Part shown: one piece after another, positions 1,266 through 30,914 of the stretch
Numbering within the stretch: the first letter of the stretch is position 1
How the letters are laid out: the number at the start of each line of letters is the position of its first letter
Origin: Rhodobacterales bacterium HKCCSP123
GTDB taxonomy: Bacteria; Pseudomonadota; Alphaproteobacteria; Rhodobacterales; Rhodobacteraceae
Direction of reading: 5' to 3'
DNA length: 64,000 nt
NCBI GenBank assembly: GCA_015689745.1
Contig: WVSO01000009.1
Span: forward strand, 1-64,000
Program-made: the position numbers and the translations under genes
Notes under the pieces: model-generated
Seen by the model: the letters and a program-made list of their open reading frames with translations, nothing else
The model's database searches: none
What the model was told of the DNA's origin: nothing

Positions 1266-2591
1266 ATGGGAGAGACTGAGGTGACACTGCCGCGCTACGT
1301 GTTCCGTCGAGCGAATGGGACGTATCGATACAAGCGCAATGTTCCCAAACGCCTGCGCAAGTACATCCGGAAGGCCACCCTCTACCGACAACTCGGGACA
1401 ACCTACAAGGAGGCGATGGACCGGCTCCCGAAGGTGCACCAGGAGATCGAAGACCTGTTCGCCTTCGAGAGGATGCTGTCTCCCGAGGAACGTGCCCGGG
1501 CCCTTGCTGTGCTGGAGTTTGGAGAGGCAGCCGTTCGCACGAGCGAGACAAAGGGCATGTATACGGTCGACGGTGAAGGGGAAGAGCTTCCCGACTTCGG
1601 GGAGTTCCACGACCTCGCGCTCGACTTGGAGGGGCAGGTTCCGATGGAGGTGCTGAGGAAGCTAGCCCAGGGGCAGTTCAGGTCTGATGCCATGACCCTG
1701 GAACGCACGTTCCTGCTCTATCGCAAGCATAAGGAAAGCACTGATCCCGACCCTGCACGGATGAAAGAACTTGAGGGGCGCCTGGATCGGCTCCGCAAAG
1801 ACATTACGGCTGCCCTCGGGGAAGCGTTCTACAAGGATACCAATCTTGCAGATCTGCGCCGTAGAGATGCCAACGCTCTTCGAGATCATATGCTGCGCAG
1901 GATGTCGGCCAATTCCGTACAGCGATACCTGAACATTCTGAAGGCGGCCGTGAACTACGTGATCCGGGAAGAGGATGTGGAGGCCAAGAACCCCTTCGCT
2001 GAGCTGCAGGTGGCAGGCGCGGGAACCAGCAAGCAGGACAGGTTGCCTCTGAGCGAGCAGGATTTCCAAGCGGCCATCCCCCACTTCCAGGGAAATCCCG
2101 ATGCGGAGCTTCTCTTCTGGCTCCTGGCTGATACCGGGGCCCGGTTGGGAGAGATCGTTGGGCTCGAGGCTCAGGACATCGATCTCGCAGCAGAGACAAT
2201 GCACCTGCGCCCCAATGCCATCAGAGGCCTGAAGACCAAGTCGTCTGAACGCATTCTCCCCTTGTCCAAACGCACCCAGGATCTCCTCTCATCACGTATC
2301 GAGCAGGCAGCTCCAAACACTGCCGTCTTCCCACGGTACGCCGCAAACCGCGGGGCCGATCGAGCCTCTGCAATGCTGATGAAGCGCCTTCGCAAGGCCA
2401 TCACCGACCCGAAGAAGAGCATGCACTCCCTGCGTCACCGAATGAAGGACGCGCTTCGGAACTCTGGCTGCCCTGAGGATCTGTCGCGGGCGATCCTGGG
2501 ACACTCCAACAACAGCATCGCAGCCAACTACGGATCGGGCTACGCCATCTCGGTGATGCGCGCGGCAATGGAGAAGGTCTGGGATAAGTGA
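1266..2591 (+). CDS. tyrosine recombinase, island integrase
   Basis: This 441-residue protein has an N-terminal arm-binding region, a central SAM-like core-binding region (about 140-245) and a C-terminal catalytic domain. The catalytic set is visible: R293 in ARLGE, the beta-hairpin Lys near 324, H387 and R390 in HSLR, H413 in GH, and nucleophile Y422. It lies 164 bp inside attL with the catalytic domain pointing away from the tRNA, so it is the natural enzyme for integration at tRNA-Thr. A GTG start at 1281 is also possible. Its stop codon overlaps the GTG start of the next gene, so the two are probably translated together. Confidence 0.93.
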   Translation: MGETEVTLPRYVFRRANGTYRYKRNVPKRLRKYIRKATLYRQLGTTYKEAMDRLPKVHQEIEDLFAFERMLSPEERARALAVLEFGEAAVRTSETKGMYTVDGEGEELPDFGEFHDLALDLEGQVPMEVLRKLAQGQFRSDAMTLERTFLLYRKHKESTDPDPARMKELEGRLDRLRKDITAALGEAFYKDTNLADLRRRDANALRDHMLRRMSANSVQRYLNILKAAVNYVIREEDVEAKNPFAELQVAGAGTSKQDRLPLSEQDFQAAIPHFQGNPDAELLFWLLADTGARLGEIVGLEAQDIDLAAETMHLRPNAIRGLKTKSSERILPLSKRTQDLLSSRIEQAAPNTAVFPRYAANRGADRASAMLMKRLRKAITDPKKSMHSLRHRMKDALRNSGCPEDLSRAILGHSNNSIAANYGSGYAISVMRAAMEKVWDK

Positions 2592-3880
2592 CCACCCCGA
2601 CGCCTGTTCCGAAGGTCAGAGCGTTCAACCCGTTCCTGCGCGCGGACTCCGAGCAGATGCGGACGCTGATTGCGGAGGTGCAGAGCCAGATCGAGGGCTA
2701 CGAGCACTTCTACAAGACGCGCCAAAACAAACGCAGGCCTGCAGATCTTCGCACCTTCGAACGGATGATCGAGGCCATCATCTGCGATCTATCCCTTGTG
2801 GAGCTGTCCAGTGACGTGGCCGCCGTCCACATACCCCGCAGCAACAAGGTCCTGCGGAAGCCGTCTCGCTACAAGGGTGAGGTCCTGTCAGGTAAGTTGC
2901 CAGACCTGCTGGATATCATGGCCGCACCTGAGATGGCGTTCGTGGAGATGACGCCCGGCTCGCAGTCCTTCAAACTCACAGCTGCCGGCCTCAGGATCGT
3001 ACCGACTGGTGGTACACAGACGACACTCGCTCCCGGAGCGAAGCTGGTCAGCCGCATCGCGCGATTCGGTATCACAGCGAGCGACATTGCACCCTCCCTT
3101 GACCAGGAGCCGATTGTGCTCCGGACTAGGAAAAAGCCGCGTCAGGATACGGCAGACCTTGTTGAGTACACCGACACCCCAGAGACCCAACGCCTGCGCA
3201 AAGAGATGCAGGACATCAATGCCTGGCTCGCTCAGGCAGACATTGAGTGTGGTCTATCGAACGTACACGCGAAGAACCGCTTTCTGAGGCGGATCTTCAA
3301 CAACGACACCTTCGAAGAGGGTGGCAGGCTCTACGGAGGGTTCTGGCAGGTCCTGTCCTCCAACGACCGCCTTACCGGTATCGCCATCAACGACGATGGC
3401 GTTGCCGAGTGCGACTATGGGCAGATGAGCCTCATGCTCCTCTATGCGGAAGCCGGAGAAACCCCACCAAAGGGCGACCTCTACGACCTCTCGGAGTATG
3501 GGATTCCGACTGACTGCAGGAAGGGCATCAAAAAAGTCATCCAGGCCATCATAAACAGCCCGAAGCTCCCTACCCGGATGCCAGGTGGTGCCCGAAAGCA
3601 CTTCCCGAAAAGGTACACCGTCAAGAAGGTGATCGAGGCCGTTCGCCTGAAGCATGATTGCGTGTTCGATCTGATGACGAGCAACGCGGGTCTCCGCCTC
3701 TTCCGGACGGAGTCCGACATACTGGTCGAGGTTCTGCTGACCCTCCGGGACCAAGGTGTTGTTGCCCTCCCGATCCATGACGGGGTCGTTGTCGCTGATA
3801 AGGACCGGGAGAAGACCATTCAGACCATGAAGAGTGTCTTCAAGAAGCAGACCGGGATCACTCCAGTGGTTCACTCTTAG
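2588..3880 (+). CDS. integrase-coupled protein with family-A DNA polymerase motifs
   Basis: This 430-residue protein starts with GTG inside a GTGA overlap with the integrase stop. The N-terminal 200 residues match nothing I know. From about 225 it carries what look like the three signatures of a family-A polymerase palm/fingers: motif A DYGQM with D276, followed by a LYAEAG helix and DLYDL; motif B with R311 and K315, the same four-residue spacing as the O-helix Arg and Lys of Pol I; and motif C LPIHDG with H397-D398. No 3'-5' exonuclease domain is visible, and the O-helix Phe and Tyr positions are Gln319 and Asn323, so activity may differ from Pol I. It may synthesise or repair DNA for the mobile element. 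Family assignment rests on motif reading only. Confidence 0.65.
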   Translation: MTTPTPVPKVRAFNPFLRADSEQMRTLIAEVQSQIEGYEHFYKTRQNKRRPADLRTFERMIEAIICDLSLVELSSDVAAVHIPRSNKVLRKPSRYKGEVLSGKLPDLLDIMAAPEMAFVEMTPGSQSFKLTAAGLRIVPTGGTQTTLAPGAKLVSRIARFGITASDIAPSLDQEPIVLRTRKKPRQDTADLVEYTDTPETQRLRKEMQDINAWLAQADIECGLSNVHAKNRFLRRIFNNDTFEEGGRLYGGFWQVLSSNDRLTGIAINDDGVAECDYGQMSLMLLYAEAGETPPKGDLYDLSEYGIPTDCRKGIKKVIQAIINSPKLPTRMPGGARKHFPKRYTVKKVIEAVRLKHDCVFDLMTSNAGLRLFRTESDILVEVLLTLRDQGVVALPIHDGVVVADKDREKTIQTMKSVFKKQTGITPVVHS

Positions 3881-4440
3881 GCCTAGGGGGAAGGTTTATC
3901 TTCACTAAGGATAAGCAACATAAACATTAATTATCAGGGGGGGTCTTCTACCCTCTTCATATAGGGGACAGGTTTTGGCTCTTCCCAGTGGGGCCGCATA
4001 GCTGCGAAAGGGCCTTCGTGGAGACTGTGCGAGAGTGGTCCGCAGTCAGGCCTCTGGGATGTGGATGGCCTCGTCATCCGGAGCTGGCTCTCGTCCGTCT
4101 CTGGTCCGCTCTGCAGCACTCTGGGTCACGTCTGGCCAAGACAGGCGGCCCTTAGAATCTGCGTGGGTAGTTTTTCAAACTTGGCATCCAATCGACCCAG
4201 AGAATCAACTAGGAAAACGGTGCCTAAGGCCATGAACGCCAAGGATAAGACGTCAGGGTATTCTGGGGCAGGTCGCGCAGGCTGCCTCGCAGTGCGGTTC
4301 GAGCAGGAACCTTGAGGCAACAGATCTCAACGGCGCAGAACCGTCACAGAGCGGTCATCTGATCAAAACGCTCGGATGACGACTTCGAGCCCGAAGCGGT
4401 CGTCTTGAAATCTCCGAAGAGGAGCATCCCAAAGGGGTCA
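3881..4440. other. 560 bp without a convincing gene; hairpin at 3896-3914
   Basis: Just after the polymerase-like gene, TTATCTT and AAGGATAA (3896-3914) form a 7-bp hairpin around a five-base loop, followed by an AT-rich stretch; it may end or stabilise the integrase transcript. The rest holds only short frames without a good ribosome binding site. A 64-residue minus-strand frame (4126-4320, TTG start) has a hydrophobic middle but no other support. Confidence 0.5.
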
Positions 4441-4929
4441 TCATAGACGGTGCGTCTGCATCGCCAACTGGTAGGACGGCCGGAGAGAAACCGCTCGACA
4501 CAGTTCGGCAAGGGCGGTTCGTTTGGCGAACAGCCCGCTCTTGTCTTCCGACCATTCGGTGAGCATTGCCAGATACAAGTCGAGCGCTGAAAAGCCGGAT
4601 GCGAGGAAGGTATTTCCTCCGCTTATCGCCGCTTCCATCAAATCGAAAAACGCCTCGAGGTCTTGGGCGGCTCGCTGTTCAACTTGGACTATGGCGGCCT
4701 CATCGAACGCATAGCGCTCGGGGTGCCCATGCCTCGCGACGGTCATATAGCCCGCGGTTGCCATCACGTTGAGCCAGAACAAGAACGCGCTCCGATCCGG
4801 AAATACTGGCCGCGGCGTAAGCCCCGAACCCGGGGCGCCCTCCCCCAGAACTATGACGATGGCCGCTGACTCTCCGATGGTCTCGCCTCCGGGAAGCGTG
4901 ATCGCAGGCGCGCGTCCCGCAACCGCTTG
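4441..4929 (-). pseudogene. glutathione S-transferase, 5'-truncated remnant
   Basis: Read from 4929 down to 4441, the frame gives about 160 residues that follow the second half of a GST: the end of the thioredoxin-like domain with the glutathione-binding ESAAI motif (residues about 17-21), then the all-helical C-terminal domain (FLFWLNVMAT onward). The first part of the thioredoxin fold, including the catalytic Ser/Cys/Tyr region, is missing. An in-frame TAG at 4930-4932 separates it from the fragment upstream, so it has no proper start. It is a remnant joined to a piece of an unrelated gene. Confidence 0.7.
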
Positions 4930-5124
4930 CTATATTATGTAGGACAATCGCCGGGTGGGGTTCGAGTCGGGCGCAATCCCCGATTGCCGGTAAAGGCCAT
5001 CGAGGGCTTGGTGCAATTCGATATCATGTGTCTGTTCCAACGTCACTCTCATCCAAGTTTGAATGACGTCCAGTCTTTCGGGGTTTGTTACAACAGGTGT
5101 TACAACGCGCACTGGTGTGGACAA
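4930..5124 (-). pseudogene. N-terminal fragment of a regulator paralogous to the one at 15004
   Basis: The 64 residues align over their full length with residues 1-64 of the TPR regulator at 15004: both begin MS, share VVTPVVT at the N-terminus and share a DSNP...L.Y pattern at the end. The frame then hits TAG exactly where the paralog continues into its DNA-binding-like domain, and the next codons belong to the GST remnant. The start is a weak TTG at 5124. This is the stump of a second regulator gene cut off by recombination. Confidence 0.6.
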
Positions 5125-5268
5125 TGCTCCTGCTCTTGGCTGGCGTGACGGCGATCGCCTCTAGGCGGTCAGCGCAAAGACCGCTGGTAGCACCGGTGCA
5201 ACCCTCCATGAGCGGACTGGACGCCACCTCATCAGAAAATTCCTTCCCACTAAAAGGTTAGACTGAAC

Positions 5269-8146: not shown

Positions 8147-10126
8147 CTACTGCACCAGCATCACGAGGCTGATCGCCCCGAGTGCGGCGACGAGCGTCGT
8201 GAACGAAAACCCGACCCGTCCCGGTAGCGACCGCAGGCGGTGACGCCAAAGCACCACCGCGACGCCAGCCATTGCGGCGACGATCCCCACAACAACCCAT
8301 GGAAGGACCAGAACCGCTGCGAAGGAGCGCGGGATCGCTCCCATGATGCCGAGATACTCGTTCTTCATCATCGTTGAGGCCACGACGCCGGAAAGCGCGC
8401 CGATGGTTCCGAGTATCGCGATCCCTGCAAGGACCGTCATCCAGGGTGGTGCGGCCTCGGCCCAGCGCATGCCACCGTGGAGTTCAGCGCGAGGATGTCC
8501 CGCAAGACGACGGATCAGAAGCGCAATCGGATATAAGAGCCAGGCGAGGATCAAGAAAACGCCGATGACCAATGCCGGCAATTGCGCCATGGCGGCCTGC
8601 GCGACCCCCATGATCCCCGAGTTCGCGATTGAGCGGTTGAGAAGGCCGACGAAGATCACGTCCTCGTCCGTCACGAACTCCGGCGCGGCGGCCGGCAGGC
8701 ATTCGGTTGAAGGAATGCGGTCCGGCTCGTCGAGAAATGCAGCGATGATGCGGTTTGCGCAATCGCTGGTCACAGCCTGACCATGCGTGCCCCCGGGAAA
8801 CACGACATGCACGGCATTGGGGAATTGCGGCAGAAGGGTCTCGGCATAGACGGGAGGGGTGATCGGATCGAATTCGCCGGACAGGAGCAGCATGGGAGTG
8901 TCGCTCGTGACAGGTGCTACCAATTCGGCTGGAAGCGCATCTACACCCCAGGCATCGCAAGTCGCCTCTGCTGTGGCCGCGTCCCGCAGCGTGGTCTCGA
9001 CTAGACGCGGCAGGATTCCCGTAAAATCGGGTGCTGTGGTCGTCTTGCTCCGTTCGGCGCAGACGACCGTGATGTGCATTGCCTCGGCGATATCCGATGC
9101 TCCGAGTTGCGAGGGAAGCAGGACGGCGGCCGTCAGTGCGAAATCGCCCCTGTCCGCGCGGTCGACGATCAGTGGCACGATCGAAGTGATATTGCTGTAT
9201 AGCGCGGAAAACAGGGCGTTTTCGAACAGGTCCCCGGTCAGTTGCACCTGAATTTCCCGGCGCTCACCCTCAAGCGGATAGATCGTCAGGGGAACAGGAT
9301 CGGCATTAAGCCGGTCGATCATCGCAACATAACGTTCTGCCAGGTCGGGAAACGCGGCATCGCAAGTCGGATGATCGCGACATCCAAGCAGGTACTTTTC
9401 GCCGATCATTTGCTGGGCTCGGGCGGGCTCCGTAAGCAGGTCATAGCTGATCGGCACGACGGCATCGAGGATTGCCGAACGCACTACGGGCACCTCGCGG
9501 ATCACGAATTGCGCCAACTCCGAACCATAGGAAACGCCGTAGATGTTGATCGCATCAAAGCCGAAGGCCATGCGGATCGTATCGACGTCCCGGGCGTTCT
9601 CGACCGAGTTGAAGGCCGAGAGATCGACACCACTTTCTGCGAGACGCGCGCCGCAGGCGGACAAGGCGTTCAATTCCGCTGATGTCTCCTCCGTGGGATC
9701 CGCCGCCGCTACCTCGAGTTCCGCCTGCTGCAGTTCGGGGCAGTTCAGCAAGGGCCGAGAAAAGCCGGTGCCCCGTTGATCCCACAGCACGATTTCACGG
9801 TTTGCCGTGGGTCGGCTGTCAGGTGTGGAAACCAGATAGGTGGCATAGGTGCCGATGGTCGCGCCGCCGGGTCCCCCTTGTGCCATGAAGAGAGGATCGG
9901 CCGGGCCCTCCGTCTCCAGCGGAGCGATCCGGGCGACGGCGAGCGAGATCGACCCGCCGTCGGGCTCATCATGCCAGAGGGGAACTTCGACCCTGTAACA
10001 CGTGATCCCATCAGTCCCCTCCGGAAGCCCGAACTCGGTACAGTCTGCCGGAGCGGGCTGTTGCTGAGCTGACACCGGAAAGGAAAGGGCCAAAAGGACG
10101 GCCAAAAGAGCGAAGAATATCGTCAT
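8147..10126 (-). CDS. secreted alpha/beta hydrolase with C-terminal membrane domain
   Basis: The 659-residue protein has a signal peptide (1-20, ending VSAQ), an alpha/beta hydrolase fold with QGGPGG and WDQRGTG loops, nucleophile S199 in GVSYGS, the acid Asp in GEFDPITPP and the His in GGTHGQ. This is the layout of proline-iminopeptidase/TAP-type tripeptidyl hydrolases. Unlike usual members it continues with about 150 residues holding four hydrophobic segments, so the enzyme is probably anchored in the inner membrane facing the periplasm. Paralogs lie at 26750 and 34252 but lack this membrane part. Substrate unknown; a peptidase or esterase is likely. Confidence 0.82.
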   Translation of the reverse strand: MTIFFALLAVLLALSFPVSAQQQPAPADCTEFGLPEGTDGITCYRVEVPLWHDEPDGGSISLAVARIAPLETEGPADPLFMAQGGPGGATIGTYATYLVSTPDSRPTANREIVLWDQRGTGFSRPLLNCPELQQAELEVAAADPTEETSAELNALSACGARLAESGVDLSAFNSVENARDVDTIRMAFGFDAINIYGVSYGSELAQFVIREVPVVRSAILDAVVPISYDLLTEPARAQQMIGEKYLLGCRDHPTCDAAFPDLAERYVAMIDRLNADPVPLTIYPLEGERREIQVQLTGDLFENALFSALYSNITSIVPLIVDRADRGDFALTAAVLLPSQLGASDIAEAMHITVVCAERSKTTTAPDFTGILPRLVETTLRDAATAEATCDAWGVDALPAELVAPVTSDTPMLLLSGEFDPITPPVYAETLLPQFPNAVHVVFPGGTHGQAVTSDCANRIIAAFLDEPDRIPSTECLPAAAPEFVTDEDVIFVGLLNRSIANSGIMGVAQAAMAQLPALVIGVFLILAWLLYPIALLIRRLAGHPRAELHGGMRWAEAAPPWMTVLAGIAILGTIGALSGVVASTMMKNEYLGIMGAIPRSFAAVLVLPWVVVGIVAAMAGVAVVLWRHRLRSLPGRVGFSFTTLVAALGAISLVMLVQ

Positions 10127-17122: not shown

Positions 17123-18655
17123 TTGAGCGAAAGCGTCATGAGCGACGAGGACAATGAGCACGAGCCGCTGTCAGCCGAGGCCGAGGCTTATATCGAACGG
17201 TACGAGAGGCGCCTGGACCAAGGGCTTGGGCAGTTTCCATTTCCGGACGACGACCCACCCTTCACGAACCTCACCGACCCTCGAGCGCACTACACCGTTG
17301 AGGACATTGGCGAGGTCTCCTGGATCGTCTCGTCCTGGTTCGTGAAGAAGGCAAACTACTACCACGACGTCACCAACCTGCAGGTGAAATACCAGCCCCA
17401 CGACGTCAAACAGGTGATCGTCCATCGCATGCGCGAGGTCTTCCCAAAGTGGAAGCCATCAGAGCAGCTCTGGCGTGACTTCTTCAAGCTCCTCCTCGAC
17501 CCGCCAGTGGACAAGCTGCACCCGGAGAAGAGCATCCCGGTGTGGTCAGGGAAGCGTGTGTGCGTTCCGGCGAACCCGCAGCGGGTATTCTTTCGAGACG
17601 GAACCGCGACGGTGAACATCTGGGAGGAACCTGCCTATCGGCGGGCGAGCGCCAAGCCGGACACAGCTTTCGACACGTTCCTCGCCTATGTGATCCCCCG
17701 CGAGACCGAGCGGGAGGTCTTCCTCAACTGGCTTGCCTGGACGCTCCAGAATGAGGGCAAGAAACCCTCCTGGGCGATCATGCTCTACTCCGACAAGCAA
17801 GGGACCGGGAAATCCACCCTCGCGGATGTTCTCAAGGCGCTCTTCGGGGAACAGAACACAGGGCGCACGAATGGGGTGGGCAAGCTCGTCGGGCGCTTCA
17901 ACAAGGAGATCCTCGAGAACAAGCTCGTGATCGTCGAGGAGGTGGAGGTTCGGCGCGGATCGCCTCAGGCCAACAGCATCAAGAGCCTCATCACGGAGGA
18001 CAGCACGATGGTCGAGGCAAAGGGGCTACCCGCCTATGTCGAGCAGATCTACTGCGCCTTCGTCATGACCACGAACCATCTACCCCTATGGCTCGAGGCC
18101 TCCGATCGTCGCTTCTACATCCTGGACTTCGACCACCAGGGTTATACGAACGGCGGACAGGATTATGACACCTTCACAGCCATTGTCGCCAAGGTGAAGC
18201 GACAGATCGAGGACCCTGAACGCCTGAAGGGCATCTATGAGAGCCTGATAGCACGCGAGGTGCCCAAAGACTTCGGCGACAAGCTGGATATCCAGCGGTA
18301 CCGAACGGACATCATGGCCCAGTTGCAGGACCTATCGCCGGACGTGGCGGAACAGGTCATTGCAGAAGCTCTTGCCGAACGTAACATCGTCTTCATACCG
18401 GTCGAGCTCGCGCATCGGGTCATGGACAAGTTCGCGCGTCGGGAGATCAACGCCCAAACGCATCTGTTCACGCGACTTGGGTGGAAGAAGAAGAAGTTTG
18501 CATGGGATGGCGGACCTCAGAAGTACGCCTGGTACAAGGAAGTCGACCGCCGATACCCAGCAGGGCGCGGCAAGATCTGGTCCGGTCATAACTGGGATGA
18601 CATGGCGGCTCAGGTCAAAAAGCTGAACAGCTTCCTCCAGGAAGAGAGACCCTAG
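17123..18655 (+). CDS. DUF5906-type primase-helicase ATPase
   Basis: The 510-residue protein carries a helicase core of the superfamily-3 type found in DUF5906/NrS-1-polymerase-like proteins of phages and plasmids: Walker A GTGKST with K230, a Walker B strand LVIVEEVEV (about 268-276), and a sensor/Arg-finger region MTTNHLPLWL...DRRFY. No primase catalytic domain is obvious in the N-terminal 180 residues, so it may be the helicase half only. Start: TTG at 17123 has an AAGGG ribosome site seven bases upstream; ATG at 17138 is the alternative. It opens the module ending at 21392 and likely serves replication of the element. Confidence 0.82.
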   Translation: MSESVMSDEDNEHEPLSAEAEAYIERYERRLDQGLGQFPFPDDDPPFTNLTDPRAHYTVEDIGEVSWIVSSWFVKKANYYHDVTNLQVKYQPHDVKQVIVHRMREVFPKWKPSEQLWRDFFKLLLDPPVDKLHPEKSIPVWSGKRVCVPANPQRVFFRDGTATVNIWEEPAYRRASAKPDTAFDTFLAYVIPRETEREVFLNWLAWTLQNEGKKPSWAIMLYSDKQGTGKSTLADVLKALFGEQNTGRTNGVGKLVGRFNKEILENKLVIVEEVEVRRGSPQANSIKSLITEDSTMVEAKGLPAYVEQIYCAFVMTTNHLPLWLEASDRRFYILDFDHQGYTNGGQDYDTFTAIVAKVKRQIEDPERLKGIYESLIAREVPKDFGDKLDIQRYRTDIMAQLQDLSPDVAEQVIAEALAERNIVFIPVELAHRVMDKFARREINAQTHLFTRLGWKKKKFAWDGGPQKYAWYKEVDRRYPAGRGKIWSGHNWDDMAAQVKKLNSFLQEERP

Positions 18656-18657
18656 CT

Positions 18658-19290
18658 GTGAGCGCTCCCGTGCGGACAGCGGAGGACGAGGCTCTGGTCC
18701 AGGCGTGGATGGCGGAGGCAGAGACGAAGCTGCGAGCCTGGGCGCCAAGCCCGCTGAGTGACCTCCTCACAACGGACCGACGCCGCGCGTATCAATCGCT
18801 GATCGAGGATCCCGACGGCTCCCTGGAGTTCCTGAAGGGTTGCCTCTCGCGCGCCAAGGTGCGCCCTGCCCTCCCCTACCATATCCAGAACATCGAAGCG
18901 CCCGGCGGCTGTTGGGAGCTTGGCACGCAGATTGCACCGGGCAGGACACGGGTCACAGGCGAAGAGGGTGACGCGTTCACGACCTACACCTACCGCCTCG
19001 TCTTCATCCTGACCCGCGCGCTGGTGCTCGACGAGGACGATCATGTTCGGCACCTGTGCAACAACCGTGCCTGCATCCGGCCGGACCATCTCGAAGTAGG
19101 CTCAGCCCAACAGAACAGACAGGACGAGGAACGGCGTCGGTATGCGGGGAACTCCCCACAAGGCCGCGGTCAAACCCTGGAAGCTCACGTTCCAAAAGCA
19201 TTGCAACTCCGGCCAGACCCTTACGTTCCAGAGCCACTTGCACGCGACGAACAGGCTGGCCCCGCGAAGAAGCCGAAGTCCAAACCATAA
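18658..19290 (+). CDS. HNH endonuclease-like protein
   Basis: The 210-residue product starts with GTG two bases after the primase-helicase stop. Its centre has the phage-type HNH signature HLCNNRACIRPDHL (about 130-145), with the cysteines and histidines expected of a zinc-bound beta-beta-alpha metal finger. The N-terminal part is helical and the C-terminus basic. HNH proteins near replication genes of mobile elements nick or cut DNA. Tight spacing implies the same transcript as the helicase. Confidence 0.75.
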   Translation: MSAPVRTAEDEALVQAWMAEAETKLRAWAPSPLSDLLTTDRRRAYQSLIEDPDGSLEFLKGCLSRAKVRPALPYHIQNIEAPGGCWELGTQIAPGRTRVTGEEGDAFTTYTYRLVFILTRALVLDEDDHVRHLCNNRACIRPDHLEVGSAQQNRQDEERRRYAGNSPQGRGQTLEAHVPKALQLRPDPYVPEPLARDEQAGPAKKPKSKP

Positions 19291-19414
19291 GTGGTTTTGG
19301 CACTGGCTACTTGTCTACTTGGCTAGTTTGGACACTCACGTCGCCCGCGCAGCCCACGAAAACTGAGAAAAGACAGGCATCTATAGAAGACATCCGTCAA
19401 TAGGAGACATTCTG

Positions 19415-19660
19415 ATGCTGTCTACATTCTGGCTCCTCGCCCTCCTGGGTGGGGGGCTTCGCCTTGTCATGGGCCTACTGCTTCGGCGGTACACCCGATA
19501 CCGCCTCTCGATCTCGCAGCCGGTGGCCGGTGTCCTGATCATCCTGGCGGGGCTGCCGGGCTACGTGAGCCCCATCAGCTTCCCTATCCCTCTGAGCCTG
19601 ACGCTTGGCTTCCTTGGCGTGGATCTCATGATGCAACGCGTCGGGAGGGCTGGGGAATGA
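19415..19660 (+). CDS. small membrane protein of the mobile module
   Basis: The 81-residue protein has two or three hydrophobic segments and a basic loop (RRYTRYR). A TAGGAG ribosome site precedes the ATG. Its stop overlaps the next start (ATGA). Family unknown. Confidence 0.6.
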   Translation: MLSTFWLLALLGGGLRLVMGLLLRRYTRYRLSISQPVAGVLIILAGLPGYVSPISFPIPLSLTLGFLGVDLMMQRVGRAGE

Positions 19661-19872
19661 CCAGGCCACTTGATGAGACTGAGCCTCTGGAGATCCATCC
19701 AGGGGATGTCGTGGTGATCGACGCCTTCGATGACGTCCCGGAACACCTCTTCCAAGTCGAGGAGGTCCACGAGGACTGTGTCACCGGTATTGCCCTCTCG
19801 GGGCCTCTCTCTGGCTGCTACGGTGAGCCAGAGCGCGAGATGATCCTTCGGGTTCTCTCGGCGGACAGCTGA
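19657..19872 (+). CDS. small acidic cytoplasmic protein of the mobile module
   Basis: The 71-residue product is acidic with a predicted small beta-barrel pattern (GDVVVID...FQVEEV...CVTGIAL). It is coupled to the membrane protein upstream by a four-base overlap. No family recognised. Confidence 0.6.
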   Translation: MTRPLDETEPLEIHPGDVVVIDAFDDVPEHLFQVEEVHEDCVTGIALSGPLSGCYGEPEREMILRVLSADS

Positions 19873-19992
19873 GCCTGTCGCACAAGGATCAACCCGGCAG
19901 GGTTCATGCTTAACGAAGCACCTGCCTGATCCGTAACGAAAACTCCCTCAAATCCACCGAAACCGGGGCCGCTGCCCCAGTCAGGAGATCTC

Positions 19993-21207
19993 ATGTCGTC
20001 ACACATGAGCTACGCCCAGTTGCGTCATCGCACCTGGGTCTATCGTCGTACCTTCCCGAGAGATGTCCAACCGCTCCTGGGAACCGCGCTCAAGCGCTCC
20101 CTCAAAACCGGAGATGTCCGGGAGGCCAGGGCGCGGATTGCGCAGCTGAATGCCACCTTCGAGGAGATGGTGTCCGAGGCGCGCACTCGGATTGCCTCGG
20201 GCTACTACGGCAGATTGGACGAGGATGGACAGACGCTCCGCCTTCCCGTCGCTCTGCCACAGTTCCAACGCCGTCTGCGGCTGCTGGGCCAGGACAATGT
20301 GGGGGATCTGGCCAATCTGTTCCTGGAGCATCGGTCCACGGTCTTACGCCCCGAGACCTTCCAGGCTTTGCGTCATGCCCTGGGTCTCTTCGTATCGGCC
20401 TATGGGCAGCAGGCGATTGGGTCGCTGTCCAAGGCAGAGGGCAGAGCCTACCTGAGCCTTCTCGCCTCGCTTCCTGCTCGGGGGGCGAGAACGGGCGCGG
20501 GACAGCGTCTCTCTGGAACAACCCAAGCCCGCCTCTGGGGTGTCGTTCGGCAGTTCCTCTCCTGGGCCGTGACCGAAAGCTATCTGGCGCGTGATCCGTT
20601 CGAGGGCATCCCTGCCCCGAGGTTCTCTCATGCCTCCTACTCGGTCATGGAGGATGGAGAGGTCGCCACCCTGCTACAGTGCGGTCATCCCCTTCTGCGG
20701 CCTCTCCTGCTGCTCTGCTTGCTCTCTGGGCTTCGCTCCGGGGAAGCAACAGGGCTCCTCGTGGAGGACGTCATCCGGAAGGAGGGCAATCTCGGAGTGT
20801 TCCTCGCCGTCCGAGAGAATGGGCGTCGCTCGCTGAAGTCCAAGGCGGCGGAACGGGAGGTGCCTCTCCACGGGCTGCTCGAACGCCATCTGCTGCCCAC
20901 GCTACCGACATCGGGTCCCCTCTTTCCGGATCTCTTTGTCGATCGGGTCGTGAAGCTCTTCGCACGTGACAGGGCACGTCTCGGACTCAAGCGGCCGGGG
21001 CTTGTGTTCCACTCCACGAGGAAGTGGTTCACCACCCAATGTGAGCGGGCAGGTGTTCCAGAGCACTTCACTGCCTCCCTGGTCGGGCATCAGTCGGCAC
21101 GCTCTGCCAATCGTCTGACCTACGGGCTCTACTCGGCTGGGATCTCCGACAGGCAGAAGCGGGAGATCATCGATCAGATCACCCTCCCAGAGGGGATCGA
21201 GCTGTGA
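19993..21207 (+). CDS. second tyrosine recombinase
   Basis: The 404-residue protein is a phage-type integrase with N-terminal core-binding helices and a C-terminal catalytic domain showing the Arg in SGLRSGEA, HSTR (His and Arg of box II), GHQS and a following Tyr in the LTYGLY segment. It differs clearly in sequence from the integrase at 1266. It lies at the end of the helicase/HNH module rather than at an island end, so the module could be a smaller element that inserted into, or fused with, the island. Its stop overlaps the GTG of the next gene. Confidence 0.9.
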   Translation: MSSHMSYAQLRHRTWVYRRTFPRDVQPLLGTALKRSLKTGDVREARARIAQLNATFEEMVSEARTRIASGYYGRLDEDGQTLRLPVALPQFQRRLRLLGQDNVGDLANLFLEHRSTVLRPETFQALRHALGLFVSAYGQQAIGSLSKAEGRAYLSLLASLPARGARTGAGQRLSGTTQARLWGVVRQFLSWAVTESYLARDPFEGIPAPRFSHASYSVMEDGEVATLLQCGHPLLRPLLLLCLLSGLRSGEATGLLVEDVIRKEGNLGVFLAVRENGRRSLKSKAAEREVPLHGLLERHLLPTLPTSGPLFPDLFVDRVVKLFARDRARLGLKRPGLVFHSTRKWFTTQCERAGVPEHFTASLVGHQSARSANRLTYGLYSAGISDRQKREIIDQITLPEGIEL

Positions 21208-22501: not shown

Positions 22502-23431
22502 GTGCGAACCCTACGACCATTTCCTGTGGCGGGCATCCTGCAACGACGTGACTTCCTCACCGGCGCGGCAGCAGCCGCGTTTGCCGCACCAAGGTTTGCG
22601 TTTGCTCAAACTAGTCTTCAACAGCGGCTTGCGGGCGGCATGCCACCGCTGGTGATCGCCCATCGGGCCAGAGTAGGGAGGGCCCCATCAAACTCGCTTG
22701 CTGGCATCCAGAACGCGATTGATGCCGGGATCGACATGGTGGAGGTCGATGTGCAGGTCACGCGCGGAGGTGATCATATCCTCATGCATGATCCAACGCT
22801 CAGCACGACCACGAATGTCAGAGACGTATTCCCGGACGGGGCGCCAAGTCTAGAAACGGGAGACCCCGCTGCCCGCCGTCACTTGATTGCCGACTACACG
22901 CCCGGAGACATCTCGCAACTGCGGCTCAATGATCGAGAAGGTGGAGTACATCGCATTCCAACGCTAAGGGATGCACTCGATCTGGCAGAGAACAACCTCT
23001 TGATGATCCTCGACCTGAAGATCTGGAACAAAGACACCTTGGTGCCGTTGCTCCAAAGTCGGCCGACAGAGAACTTGTTGCTGTTCACCACGGCAAGTGA
23101 GAGCCAGTTGCTGGAGACCGCCGAGGCGACCGGCATTGGCGTCTTCATCGACCTGGAAGAGTTCACATCGACGGGCCGGGCCTTTGACCGGTCTGTCGAC
23201 CGATATGCATCTCGGCTGAAGATGGTGAGTGTGGGGCCCGACCAGTTCACACCGGAAGTTCGCGAGAGAGCCGAAGAGCACGAGGTGGCCGTGTGCATCA
23301 ATGGGTTCTCGCTCGATGATGCTGCACAACTTGGATCGGATTACAGTCCTTGGGCGAGAGCTTTGGCGGTCGGCGCTGACGCCTACATGACACGCTTGCC
23401 GATGGTGGTGCAGGACCTCTTGCGGCGATAG
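22502..23431 (+). CDS. Tat-exported glycerophosphodiester phosphodiesterase family protein
   Basis: The protein begins with a Tat signal (QRRDFL, then an alanine-rich helix) and continues as a GDPD TIM barrel: IAHR at the first strand, MVEVDVQ for the ExD metal pair, and LMHDPTL for the HD motif. The usual PENT segment reads PSNS, so that Glu is lost, but the core HR-ExD-HD set is complete and activity is plausible. Start choice: GTG at 22502 has GGAGA seven bases upstream; ATG 22496 and GTG 22460 are in frame. A degenerate paralog is at 54639. Confidence 0.8.
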   Translation: MRTLRPFPVAGILQRRDFLTGAAAAAFAAPRFAFAQTSLQQRLAGGMPPLVIAHRARVGRAPSNSLAGIQNAIDAGIDMVEVDVQVTRGGDHILMHDPTLSTTTNVRDVFPDGAPSLETGDPAARRHLIADYTPGDISQLRLNDREGGVHRIPTLRDALDLAENNLLMILDLKIWNKDTLVPLLQSRPTENLLLFTTASESQLLETAEATGIGVFIDLEEFTSTGRAFDRSVDRYASRLKMVSVGPDQFTPEVRERAEEHEVAVCINGFSLDDAAQLGSDYSPWARALAVGADAYMTRLPMVVQDLLRR

Positions 23432-23559
23432 ATTTTGGCTGGCCGCTTCCGGGCATATCTGAACCGGTTAGGCTGAAGGTCCGCTGCTGCATAGAGCAGC
23501 CGTCGTCATCGGCGGCCGAGATCGGCGGCTACGCGGACAAAACGGCTATCTGGGCGATG

Positions 23560-23961
23560 CTATCTCGAAGAGTTCGATCTTGCGAAGACGCTTACGAGAA
23601 ACGCCGTCGACATTCCGAACCCCAGGATACCGGCGAATGCAGCCATCGCACCTAGGATACGTGACCCAGAGCCGAGAGTAAGATCTCCGTATCCGACAGT
23701 CGTGTATGTCACCAGAGTGAAGTAGAAGGCATCGGAAAACACTGCCAGCGCAGGGACGATGATCCACAGAGCCAAGGCCCAAAGCGCAATCTGAAGTAGG
23801 TGTATCGAGACAATCACAGCGAGCAAGCGAGCAATCCGAGCAGTTCCGAGCGACTCCGTTTCTTGCGCGACGTTCGATAGCCTAACCAGGCTAGCAAGCT
23901 GCAAGAATGCCGCGACAAGGAATAGGCCTGTGCCTACTAGGACTTGAAGAGCTAGATTCAT
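23560..23961 (-). CDS. two-helix potassium channel
   Basis: The ATG at 23961 gives 133 residues (GTG at 23976 adds five). It has a hydrophobic N-terminal helix, further helices, a pore loop with the K+ selectivity filter TTVGYGD and a last helix, the layout of Ion_trans_2 channels. No cytoplasmic regulatory (RCK) domain is attached. Convergent with the GDPD gene. Confidence 0.85.
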   Translation of the reverse strand: MNLALQVLVGTGLFLVAAFLQLASLVRLSNVAQETESLGTARIARLLAVIVSIHLLQIALWALALWIIVPALAVFSDAFYFTLVTYTTVGYGDLTLGSGSRILGAMAAFAGILGFGMSTAFLVSVFARSNSSR

Positions 23962-24282
23962 TCCCAGTTGCTCCACTCAAAACCGAAGGCGTTGCCGCTG
24001 CTGGTCAAATTGTATCAGAACGGCCCCCGGAGCCGAGTTCAGTGAAGCATGCCGCATATCAAGTTGGCCACCCTCAAGACTGGCTTTCATGGCGCCTTGG
24101 TCACTAGTTGGGTAATCGCCGTAGCCGCTATGATTGTGGGCTGTACCTGAGAGCAGACTCAGATAAGCAACGCAGCCCGATTTTTTCTCCGGTGTGCATG
24201 ACCTCGTTCGGCACCTGCCAGATCCCATTCAAGGGAGGAGCCCCCTGATCCAGAGGGCGCGGGCCTGAACTAATTTGAAAGA
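23962..24282. other. about 320 bp between divergent genes, nothing recognised
   Basis: It should hold the promoters of the channel gene and of the small genes at 24283 and 24525, but no clear motif was seen. Confidence 0.4.
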
Positions 24283-24510
24283 ATGACCGGGCGGGACTGG
24301 CTCGAGGTGTATTTCCGCGCCTTGGAGGAAGCCGGAGGGCAGCTTGTCTTGTCAGAGGTCGAACCGGAGGCCTTGGAAACGCTGAGGTCAAAGGGCTTCA
24401 CCCCCGAGGTGCTTGTCGCCTATCTTAGGCAGACCGTTGCGCTTGCGGCGACAGAAGAGGCGCTCGTGTTTGCACGCAACTCGACCGGCGCTCCGATGCC
24501 GGTCCCCTAA
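24283..24510 (+). CDS. small protein of unknown function
   Basis: The 75-residue protein is soluble and mostly helical (WLEVYFRALEEAGG, PEVLVAYLRQTVALAATEEALVFA). The ribosome site is weak. It reads toward a small membrane protein 14 bp downstream, which supports a real gene pair. Confidence 0.5.
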   Translation: MTGRDWLEVYFRALEEAGGQLVLSEVEPEALETLRSKGFTPEVLVAYLRQTVALAATEEALVFARNSTGAPMPVP

Positions 24511-26749: not shown

Positions 26750-28762
26750 ATGAGACCTACGCATTCTTCCTGCAAAATGCTTGGCGTGCTTGCCTTTACA
26801 GGTCTGTCACTGGGATCAGTACCGGCTTTCGGGCAGGTTGGTTTGGGCAACCCTCTGCCGTTGAGTGCTGAGACGATACCCTGCCCGATGTCCCTTCCCG
26901 CCGGCGACATTGACGGCGAAACCATGGTTTGCGGTCAGATCGAGGTTCCAGAGAACTGGGATGATCCGGGTGACCGAACGCTTCTGATCACATACGCGAT
27001 CGCCAAGGCTCGCAATGAGGCGCCCTTCGCGGACCCAATCCTGTATTTCGAAGGCGGCCCGGGCATCTCCGCTCTTGAGGAAATCGAGTGGCTCGATGGA
27101 AATACAAGTCGCCTGCGGCAGACCCGCGACATCATCTTCTTTGATCAGCGGGGTATTCGGTACAGTTCTGCGCTCGAGTGCCCCCCTGAAGTCAATAGCA
27201 CTGTGAACGAGATTGTATTCCCGGAAGGCTTCGACCTGGAGGCGCTAGACAGCACGATTAGCAACATAACCCCGGACTCTGACGAAGATGCTCTGCTGGA
27301 AGCGGCCGAAATTCTGGGACCCGGTGACGACGCTCTCAACTGCGCACCCTACTTCGAAGAGCAGGGCATCGATCTGAGCCAATATAGCTCCTACAGCAAT
27401 GCGCTGGATGCAATCGCCCTGATGAACGCGCTCAACTACCCGTCCTACAACCTGTACGGCATTTCCTACGGCTCGAACCACACGATGGAGGTGATGCGCT
27501 ACTACGACGAGAATGACAGTGTGAACTTTCCTGTGATTCGAAGCGTAGTCATCGACGGCGTCGTAGGCACCTGGGTCGATTGGCTCGCCGTCTTGGTTGC
27601 CTTTCCAAATGTCATACTCGATGCGTTTGAGCAGTGCGAAGCGGATGACGCATGCTTGGCCAGCTACCCGAACATTCGCCAGCGCGCGATCGATCTGGTG
27701 GAGATGATAGCGGCTGACCCGCTTACCGTCGGCGAGTCGACGACCATTACGATCGACGATCTACGCGGCATACTGAGAAGGTATGCTTTTCGTAACGAAG
27801 CACGTGTCTACTTTCCGCGCTTGATCGATGAGCTGGAGCGAGGAGAAACAGAGTTGTACCTGCGTTTGCAGGATGAAACGCTACCCATCGTTTCTGATGC
27901 AGACCTGCCAGAGTTGAGCACCCCATTCGAGCCGATCGCGGTGGAAGCGAATGATATTGCGGACCAGATGCGCGTTCTGGCAGATGAAGTCGAGAACCTG
28001 GCCGCTCAAAGTCGGCGTCTGAGCGAGGCATACGATCGTGGCGTGCCTCTGCCCCAATTCTTTGCGGACGAATTCGCGAATAGCGCCGAACAACTCCCGG
28101 GTGCAGTTCAGCAGCAAGTTAACCTGTTCTTAGTAAATATGCGGACGACCTCGGGCGATCGGGAACAGCTGTTGCAGATAGTTACGGTGTTTTCCCCGTC
28201 AGAGCGAAACTTGTTGCTTAGCTTGCTTAGCTTGATGGATGACGACGATATTGCGGAACTATACTCGATACTTGCTGATCCGCTTTACAGCGAACGCTTC
28301 GTCAGTCTTTTTTCCATTATTCAAACCGTAATCCATTGTAATGACCGTGTATTCGACTTGAGGAAGACATTCGAAACCCTGCGCGCCAACGATGCTCCTC
28401 AGTTGATCCCCGGCGGCGCAGGCGCCGTCGACTTTGGCTTTGGTGCCAGATGTGCGGCATATGGTTTGAGTGCCAACCCGTCAGAGCCAATTTCCAATTC
28501 CAGTCGGTTTCCTGTTCTGGTCTCAAATGGCAGCCTGGATAGCAACACTCCGGCTATCTGGGGTGAGACAGTTTTTGAAGGTCTGGAGAATGCGCAAATG
28601 GTGACTTTCCCTAGCAGTGCCCACGGCGCGACCCGCGATACTAACTGCGCGAGAGATATCACGAACGCCTTCTTCATGTACCCGGAAGAGGAGCTCAACT
28701 TGAGCTGCGTTGATGATTTGCGCCCAGTCTTCGTGCTGCCAGACGATCCACTGCCGGAATAG
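26750..28762 (+). CDS. secreted TAP-type alpha/beta hydrolase
   Basis: The 670-residue protein has a signal peptide (ending AFGQ), the loops FEGGPG and FDQRGIRY, nucleophile S239 in GISYGS, an acid Asp in NGSLDSNTP and the His in SSAHGATR. It contains a long insert (about 300-570) with acidic helices that forms a large lid. Layout is that of secreted tripeptidyl aminopeptidase-like hydrolases. It resembles 8147 and 34252 but lacks the membrane tail of 8147. The downstream PliG-SH3b gene is 45 bp away, so the pair is likely co-transcribed. Confidence 0.85.
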   Translation: MRPTHSSCKMLGVLAFTGLSLGSVPAFGQVGLGNPLPLSAETIPCPMSLPAGDIDGETMVCGQIEVPENWDDPGDRTLLITYAIAKARNEAPFADPILYFEGGPGISALEEIEWLDGNTSRLRQTRDIIFFDQRGIRYSSALECPPEVNSTVNEIVFPEGFDLEALDSTISNITPDSDEDALLEAAEILGPGDDALNCAPYFEEQGIDLSQYSSYSNALDAIALMNALNYPSYNLYGISYGSNHTMEVMRYYDENDSVNFPVIRSVVIDGVVGTWVDWLAVLVAFPNVILDAFEQCEADDACLASYPNIRQRAIDLVEMIAADPLTVGESTTITIDDLRGILRRYAFRNEARVYFPRLIDELERGETELYLRLQDETLPIVSDADLPELSTPFEPIAVEANDIADQMRVLADEVENLAAQSRRLSEAYDRGVPLPQFFADEFANSAEQLPGAVQQQVNLFLVNMRTTSGDREQLLQIVTVFSPSERNLLLSLLSLMDDDDIAELYSILADPLYSERFVSLFSIIQTVIHCNDRVFDLRKTFETLRANDAPQLIPGGAGAVDFGFGARCAAYGLSANPSEPISNSSRFPVLVSNGSLDSNTPAIWGETVFEGLENAQMVTFPSSAHGATRDTNCARDITNAFFMYPEEELNLSCVDDLRPVFVLPDDPLPE

Positions 28763-30432: not shown

Positions 30433-30888
30433 CGGGCACTGGGGGGGGCGGTCTTGCACATAGGCCGCTCCTCTTGGCCTTGAATTGGCACCCCCGGATG
30501 TCTCGATGGGTAGCGGATCAAAGACGGCAGACAGGCGCAACCGGAACTAAGACGTTTGGCCAACTTGGATCACGCCATGCGTGCATGCCCCGTCCGATCT
30601 TTCCGCGACTCCCGCATACGCATCAATCGCAGCCGACCCCCGGCTACCGCCCTTCTGTCGCGTTCAGAGCACTGCAGAGAATGGCGGCTATGGGCTCGTT
30701 CGGGACATCTGAGCGTTCTGGTCTGATGACTGCTTCGGACCCGAATTCGGGCATCCAATCGTGTTCGAAGCTCCAATAACGCCGGAGTCGATTGATGCCC
30801 AACATGTGGACCGCTTTCGGGACCACTCCGATCTAGAAGACACCGCACAACACTCTGTTACTAGGTTATATTCTTGCAGGTTGGGGCG
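30433..30888. other. right end of the island, no gene; carries a 20-bp repeat of the left end
   Basis: Bases 30808-30827 repeat 1162-1181 exactly and in the same direction, 62 bp before attR. The rest has no supported gene. It is probably the element's right attachment region with recombinase-binding sites. Confidence 0.55.
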
Positions 30889-30914
30889 CCCTTCACCGGC
30901 ACCATTCTTCTCTC
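30889..30914 (+). repeat. attR core: 26-bp direct repeat at the right island end
   Basis: Perfect copy of 1077-1102, including the last bases of tRNA-Thr. Only this 3' tip of the tRNA is present here, as expected for the displaced original chromosomal end. Sequence after 30914 is the former downstream flank of the tRNA. Confidence 0.9.

Follow-up and report, generated by a model that had tools for sequence, protein, structure and literature searches.

A TV-Pol-type polymerase on an integrated element of a Rhodobacterales bacterium, a candidate primase-polymerase linked to site-specific recombinases

The TV-Pol family of polymerases was first described by Iyer, Abhiman and Aravind in 2008 (PMC2579912), and is characterized by a hairpin arginine, two palm aspartates, a fingers aspartate with an RxxxK motif and a two-helix thumb. 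The same study predicted that TV-Pols serve as primase plus polymerase of mobile elements, and described a group of members that carry an additional N-terminal domain and adjoin genes for a gamma-delta resolvase, a lambda-type integrase or a transposase (PMC2579912). Rhodobacterales and other alphaproteobacteria are included in the published alignment (PMC2579912). Here we analyze a gene from Rhodobacterales bacterium HKCCSP123 that occurs at 2588-3880 (+ strand) in a stretch of 64,000 nucleotides (contig WVSO01000009.1, positions 1 to 64,000), hereafter the window. It is a genuine, well-conserved gene, and its product, the window polymerase, belongs to a known family rather than to a new kind. 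We consider it somewhat probable that this protein is the primase-polymerase of a mobile element, from the resolvase/integrase-linked TV-Pol branch and of the minimal family-A superfamily type. The reading is supported by the fold, the active site, the TV-Pol features, the linkage to recombinases, the element ends, a duplicate in HTCC2083, the pattern of substitutions and the precedent of CCPol-MP.

Among proteins counted as TV-Pols, CCPol together with MP has been shown to be a DNA primase (Bebel et al. 2020, PMC7581432). A later account extends this case to PolA-SSB pairs and also states that CCPol on its own is limited to primer extension (Rice 2023, PMC10061031). A further described relative is divPolA2, named in barbaviruses in 2024 and suggested there to be a repair or RNA polymerase (PMC11348598). 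In the accessible main text of that report the terms "resolvase" and "bacterial genomes" are absent, and "TV-Pol" has a single mention, made in the background. An initial annotation of the window had treated the gene as a member of an unnamed family with no described function, a view that does not hold given that the family is already described both as TV-Pol (PMC2579912) and, as far as the accessible text goes, as divPolA2 (PMC11348598). Our literature search, with subscription journals mostly outside its reach, listed no work that, by its title or the opening of its abstract, joins TV-Pol with divPolA2 or assays this branch.

The window polymerase (P0001) is encoded by an intact open reading frame of 430 amino acids that begins with GTG. 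The start codon (2588-2590) and the TGA stop codon (2589-2591) of the upstream integrase gene share GTGA, so the coordinates bear out the overlap reported initially, and GGAG and AAGG precede the GTG by 14 nt and 10 nt, respectively. Searches of Pfam, NCBIfam and PADLOC returned no meaningful family match and PDB sequences no significant one; the sole clear family is PHROG 4756 ("unknown function"; E 2.7e-26), which is also matched by 17 of 17 members of our family profile A1. Neither the Pfam search nor the predicted model contains an exonuclease family or extra domain, and none of 17 family members has a Pfam nuclease at E <= 0.1. No linked nuclease genes were found, with neighboring genes Pfam-scanned at few loci only. 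Alignment of the family profile by hhalign with profiles of PolA, T7 RNA polymerase and N4 gp16 was not significant (probabilities 3%, 0.6% and 1.1%, respectively).

Structure prediction places the protein more clearly. The AlphaFold2 model (mean predicted local distance difference test score (pLDDT) 94.5, predicted template modeling score 0.90) has a predicted palm and fingers of the right-handed family-A type, and a Foldseek search of the PDB gave 45 matches at E <= 1e-3, in which family-A DNA polymerases fill rows 1-33 and RNA polymerases begin at rank 34. By query, TM-scores are low (0.26-0.37), presumably because the shared part is limited to palm and fingers. Against viral models the top rows are phage proteins of similar size, including one from Barba31A that is named DNA polymerase (E 2.1e-19), and further down there is a Zamilon virus replication protein (E 1.3e-3) that we take to be a TV-Pol. 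Together the reading frame, motifs and predicted fold confirm the initial description of a compact family-A-type polymerase of 430 residues without an exonuclease.

The N-terminal domain (residues 1-166; 2588-3085, + strand) is modeled with a pLDDT of 93.0 when folded alone, mixes helices and strands, and appears weakly winged-helix-like. Foldseek gave no match for it at E <= 1e-3, and its sequence profile gave nothing below E 0.5 against the PDB. The 50 matches listed by VIA-align are mostly winged-helix regulators with Z of 4.3-5.5, which is below a trustworthy level; the N-domain of T7 RNA polymerase is among the top matches (Z 5.5), and Alba and others are also listed. A maximum Z of 5.5 shows neither novelty nor its lack, and the proposal that this half of the protein is novel is weakened by a winged-helix likeness that is itself weak.

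Conservation of the active site was assessed in an alignment of 100 members, comprising the window polymerase and 99 relatives of at least 300 amino acids. The residues of motifs A, B and C named initially (D276 in DYGQM, R311, K315 and H397-D398) are present at the given positions and are kept across homologs, the two acidic ones without exception: the catalytic D276 of motif A (3413-3415, + strand) occurs in 100/100 members, and in motif C (3776-3781, + strand) H397 occurs in 93 and D398 in all of the 98 rows that reach it. The hairpin arginine R247 of the GGR motif (3326-3328, + strand), carried on strand 245-250 of the model, is present in 96 of the 99 members that have a residue there, and the three rows without it (L150-L152) belong to one divergent clade. 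For the fingers motif R311-x3-K315 (3518-3532, + strand) the counts are 96/97 for the arginine and 95/100 for the lysine, and the fingers aspartate D297 is kept in 94/100. In an alignment of 51 sequences (the window polymerase and 50 relatives) R235, G246, R247, R261, D276, D297, R311, K315, P395, H397, D398 and M414 are invariant. Many of the exceptions are found in four rows (L150-L153) from four small genomes (1.4 Mb); these four proteins keep both catalytic aspartates and have lost most other active-site residues, and are possibly a domesticated form.

At the left end of an integrated element of 29.8 kb, the integrase gene comes first and that of the window polymerase second. This placement follows from 26-bp direct repeats, a further pair of repeats inside them, a shift in G+C content and uninterrupted sites in other genomes. 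The integration target is a tRNA-Thr (CGT) gene detected by ARAGORN (1017-1092, + strand), the 3' end of which is overlapped by one copy of the 26-bp repeat (attL, 1077-1102, + strand), with the identical second copy at 30889-30914 (attR, + strand); even when up to 5 mismatches are tolerated, the window contains no further copy of the 21-base core of this repeat. Just inside the ends, two 40-nt stretches (1153-1192 and 30799-30838, neither assigned to a strand) are 78% alike and could be arm-type sites for the integrase. That enzyme (P0002; 1266-2591, + strand) is a tyrosine integrase with DUF6538 and Phage_integrase domains (PF20172, 1.8e-6; PF00589, 1e-17). G+C content is mostly 0.56-0.63 between the repeats and mostly 0.65-0.71 to the right of the element. 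A search for empty sites in 41 genomes, 12 of which are other genomes of the same genus, revealed that the sequence to the right of attR directly abuts tRNA-Thr in the same-genus genomes G005 (69 bp, 89%), G006 and G009 (57 bp each), with a weaker junction in G004 (44 bp) and matches too short to judge in G002 and G011.

Linkage to recombinases extends well beyond the window. A scan of genome contigs yielded 44 loci, mostly from alphaproteobacteria but also from a Cupriavidus isolate and from contigs of metagenome-assembled genomes named Planctomycetota and Nitrospira, and these reduce to 36 distinct loci when copies and polymerase pieces of <200 amino acids are dropped. A tyrosine or serine recombinase lies within 5 kb at 28 of the 36 (tyrosine integrase in 18, serine resolvase in 19), with flanks incomplete in many and with profiles that are not independent of the set, since the integrase profile was extended from P0002 with these very loci and the resolvase profile was built from them with one member Pfam-confirmed. 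Among distinct viral-contig loci the count is 7/23, and when both sets are limited to the 28 loci with 4.5 kb on each side a recombinase is present in 21. In the 3.97 Mb of the host genome Pfam finds 17 matches to Phage_integrase and 2 to Resolvase, so that ~0.05 recombinases would be expected per 11 kb if this rate holds elsewhere. An integrase on the same strand lies directly upstream of the polymerase in the window (overlap) and at L059 (34 bp), L049 (9), L037 (94), L144 (131) and L089 (overlap, with a truncated polymerase). In L054 and L055, the relatives closest to the window polymerase, a different integrase lies downstream of the polymerase, and its matched part shows 22.7-29.2% identity to P0002. 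L055 additionally retains, just ahead of its polymerase, a 26-residue remnant that resembles the C-terminus of P0002 (14/26 identical). The pairing of integrase and polymerase is therefore not fixed, as the neighboring recombinase varies within the window's own clade. In HTCC2083 the locus occurs as two copies that are 99.87% identical over 5.2 kb. Rhizobial relatives frequently have as a neighbor a Cys/His-rich protein (A6), mostly of 210-290 amino acids, with C-x4-C ... C-x2-H and HGS motifs; it is found at loci between L062 and L094 and at L050, upstream or downstream of the polymerase, and has no PDB sequence match below E 0.3 and, for the one member scanned, no Pfam match.

Tyrosine and serine recombinases carry out conservative strand exchange and leave no gap. 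This bears on one alternative, under which the window polymerase would be a strictly primer-dependent DNA polymerase for repair or gap filling and would finish DNA once integration or single-strand entry has taken place. The Pol I-like palm and fingers found by Foldseek and the gene overlap with the integrase are compatible with such a role, as is the primer extension reported for CCPol alone in the accessible text (PMC10061031). However, gap filling on behalf of the integrase, as proposed in the initial annotation, is unlikely because tyrosine recombination does not call for it and because the recombinase next door differs between relatives as close as L054 and L055, the latter with its P0002-like scrap. 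Additionally, only a minority of the viral-contig loci have a recombinase within 5 kb. We regard this alternative as a whole as unlikely.

A second alternative is a single-subunit RNA polymerase that would transcribe genes of the element, with the N-terminal domain reading a promoter. The fold comparison by VIA-align keeps this possibility in play, as its top rows are mitochondrial and T7 RNA polymerases: yeast mitochondrial RNA polymerase has Z 14.4 (3.2 A over 239 residues) and T7 RNA polymerase Z 13.9. The Pol I enzyme apPol follows with Z 13.7, so the model scores are tied within 1 Z, and in Foldseek the DNA polymerases come first. While fold and motifs uphold the family-A assignment in the initial annotation, its label of DNA polymerase may thus be too narrow, since by VIA-align the model is about equally close to RNA polymerases.

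The absent steric gate also keeps an RNA polymerase in consideration. In family-A polymerases the gate against ribonucleotides is a glutamate, as stated in the accessible part of PMC10639073. Motif A aligns with that of Klenow without gaps (DYGQMS versus DYSQIE), and in this register the position of Glu710, which is S281 in the window polymerase (3428-3430, + strand), is occupied by His in 49 members, Phe in 14, Gly in 9, Gln in 7, Asn in 5, Ser in 4 and by others, but by Glu in 0/100. At the position of Glu883 the 98 rows have Ser (55), Ala (26), Gly (12), Lys (4) or Cys (1) and never Glu, and at the position of Tyr766, which corresponds to Tyr639 of T7 RNA polymerase, 62 of 99 rows have Asn, 21 have Phe and 1 has Tyr. 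Reference numbering was verified on E. coli PolA, T7 RNA polymerase and T7 gp5, and the register in distant rows depends on the alignment. Given that no member keeps Glu710, that no row extending to position 883 has Glu there and that Tyr766 survives in a single row, polymerases of this family may accept ribonucleotides. The frequent Ser at position 883 is shared with T7 RNA polymerase, the N-terminal domain includes that of T7 RNA polymerase among its top matches, and 2/17 members each match PF00940 (best 0.012) and the RNA polymerase PHROG 414 (best 3.9e-4) weakly; an RNA polymerase was also raised for divPolA2 in the accessible text of PMC11348598. Against this stand the tied VIA-align scores, the order of the Foldseek rows, the replacement of Tyr639 mostly by Asn or Phe, and a length of just 430 amino acids. 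Overall we find a transcriptional role quite unlikely.

The family is neither rare nor confined to cellular genomes. This polymerase was predicted from context in 2008; among 385 genomes sampled from the class, 32 match profile A1 at E <= 1e-3, some only in part. With the window polymerase itself as query, 15 of 101 genomes (its own and relatives) gave a match, of which 13 count, the own genome included, because G036 and G053 match only through residues 14-93 of the query. Matches of that stretch in frames of ~580 residues (L014, L015, L022 and L025), which we take to be NAD-formate-dehydrogenase-type subunits, were discarded as chance. The three polymerase copies of the own genome do not group together in a 100-row tree, each being placed in a different part of it. 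In this tree, made by a quick method with long branches and with copies and rows of <300 amino acids left out beforehand, 24 viral and 76 cellular rows are intermixed with 13 label changes, at least 5 of which are forced by starred forks. Matches were found in 134 of 50,697 phage records, 115 of them Rheinheimera, and in 3 of 72,556 plasmid records, while a viral-contig scan with the window polymerase as single query gave 18 stretches, none of which was confirmed. One phage, Shewanella phage KASIA (L053), encodes a relative besides an annotated DNA polymerase I, primase, helicase and RNA polymerase; its record matches profile A5, and the T7 and N4 records do not. Present on integrative elements and in phages, the family is under purifying selection as judged from the ratio of nonsynonymous to synonymous substitution rates (dN/dS), which is 0.089-0.183 in seven pairs of relatives without the window gene (dS above 1.7 in two of them) and 0.207 for the window gene versus L055 (dS 2.0); two further pairs are saturated. 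The copy in G050 is interrupted by a stop and that in G025 is matched in its C-terminal part only, and such broken or partial copies are usual for mobile genes. A defense or conflict polymerase, for example one that senses or copies invader DNA as the initial annotation had also entertained, is very improbable given that none of the 5027 PADLOC models is matched at E <= 0.1 by any of 17 members and that phages also carry the family, even though some relatives adjoin type I restriction-modification genes and such a role is mentioned for PolA-SSB primases in the accessible text of PMC10061031.

The reading that we favor is the primase-polymerase of a mobile element. The integrase of the same operon would excise the element as a circle, or the element would enter a cell in single-stranded form. 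The winged-helix-like domain may then recognize DNA and position the template, and the palm and fingers would make a primer de novo and extend it, such that the element is copied prior to re-integration.

Several observations weigh against this scheme. In the model one long helix (198-216) lies ahead of the hairpin, and a two-helix thumb is not clear. The rhizobial neighbor A6 is not found in the window. The helicase candidate of the element, a DUF5906 protein with a Walker A motif (17123-18655, + strand; PF19263, 2.1e-22) that we presume to be an SF3-like (superfamily 3) helicase, is 13 kb from the polymerase and adjoins a second integrase, and a search for it in the flanks of L029-L155, made with this single query that would miss distant helicases, found none. 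The listed open reading frames that start at 3881-5268, downstream of the polymerase, are all <115 amino acids, and no helicase adjoins it. The copying in HTCC2083 may have another cause, because the right-end 1.38 kb of the duplicate is itself a repeat that is present once more in inverted orientation. The one named TV-Pol record compared, that of phage Ma-LMM01, gave no match to our hidden Markov model, with none below E 0.45 with filters off; its open reading frame 22749-24293 is ranked 1/78 by hhalign with GxRxY and D-x4-H aligned, but at a probability of 4% and without RxxxK in the fingers. CCPol needs its partner MP to prime according to the accessible texts (PMC7581432, PMC10061031), and no such partner was recognized next to the window polymerase. 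Barbaviruses with divPolA2 also carry a regular PolB and have variable gene neighborhoods around it, as stated in the accessible part of PMC11348598, so that repair or transcription also fits divPolA2. Lastly, the literature search described above found no published assay of this branch.

Other features of the locus and of its relatives are as follows. The DUF5906 protein stands in a row with an HNH protein and another tyrosine integrase of the DUF6538 type (17123-21207); the three are possibly a second, nested element, so the 29.8-kb element may be composite. A PLD-family protein at 24784-26322 matches DrmC models (E 4.4e-20), and Drm models match none of the other nine proteins scanned. Two TAP-like proteins on opposite strands of the element (8147-10126, - strand; 26750-28762, + strand) both match PADLOC model C3a206. 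Ahead of the intact tRNA-Thr gene, positions 861-929 are a 69-nt partial copy (90%) of 996-1064, which covers the start of that gene and the stretch upstream, and this is perhaps the scar of an older insertion. In five of five viral contigs (L115, L117, L118, L120 and L121), some of them near copies, a relative of 371-372 amino acids lies between a UvsW-type helicase and a PTPS-family gene, with one small gene separating it from the helicase.

Comparison with known systems indicates that the window polymerase fits the resolvase/integrase-linked TV-Pol branch, as compared by published features and gene context. It shares with TV-Pols, which are 400-600 amino acids in size, a minimal superfamily-A core with two catalytic aspartates in an RRM-type palm and no nuclease, as well as the hairpin arginine and the fingers aspartate with RxxxK, and like members of that branch it resides on mobile elements with a gamma-delta resolvase or lambda-type integrase. 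Three of the four TV-Pol core features are thus present in the family; the fourth, the two-helix thumb, is unclear in the model. The window polymerase differs from TV-Pols in that its modeled N-domain contains strands in addition to helices where the published domain is predicted to be all-helical, and in that no D5 helicase adjoins it. The family resembles divPolA2 and PHROG 4756 in a shared profile match, in the Barba31A fold match, in tblastn matches of the window polymerase to barbavirus proteins (E 4e-4 to 6e-4 among the matches listed) and in the same ambiguity between RNA polymerase and Pol I; these differ from the window polymerase in being phage copies. The tie between divPolA2 and TV-Pol suggested by these matches, together with the absence in all 100 aligned members of the glutamate that excludes ribonucleotides in Pol I, is to our reading new, and concerns proteins that annotation libraries list as unknown (PHROG) or match with nothing convincing (Pfam, NCBIfam). 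Like CCPol-MP and the PolA-SSB pairs of SCCmec-type elements, the window polymerase is a family-A polymerase of an integrative element with site-specific recombinases. In the accessible account (PMC10061031), however, the PolA-SSB polymerases modeled with a full polymerase domain retain the 3'-5' exonuclease domain wholly or partly, most share their operon with a helicase and an OB-fold partner, and the examples all come from Bacillota. The gene upstream of the window polymerase encodes an integrase. With Pol I and T7-like RNA polymerases it shares the palm and fingers fold and motifs A, B and C, but it is far shorter, has no exonuclease, lacks the steric-gate glutamate and belongs to a family in which Tyr766/Tyr639 is mostly replaced; it thus lacks both marks of a classical DNA Pol I, with the glutamate missing in 100/100 members. 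As a tentative and rather doubtful extension, integrase-linked TV-Pols and phage divPolA2 might form one widespread, self-sufficient primase-polymerase family that has no ribonucleotide gate, starts chains with nucleoside triphosphates (NTPs) and uses a winged-helix domain in place of MP (in CCPol) or of the T7 RNA polymerase N-domain. If the family does prime with NTPs, this would bear on how integrative elements copy themselves and on the relationship between Pol I-type and T7-type polymerases, between which such proteins would be a living intermediate.

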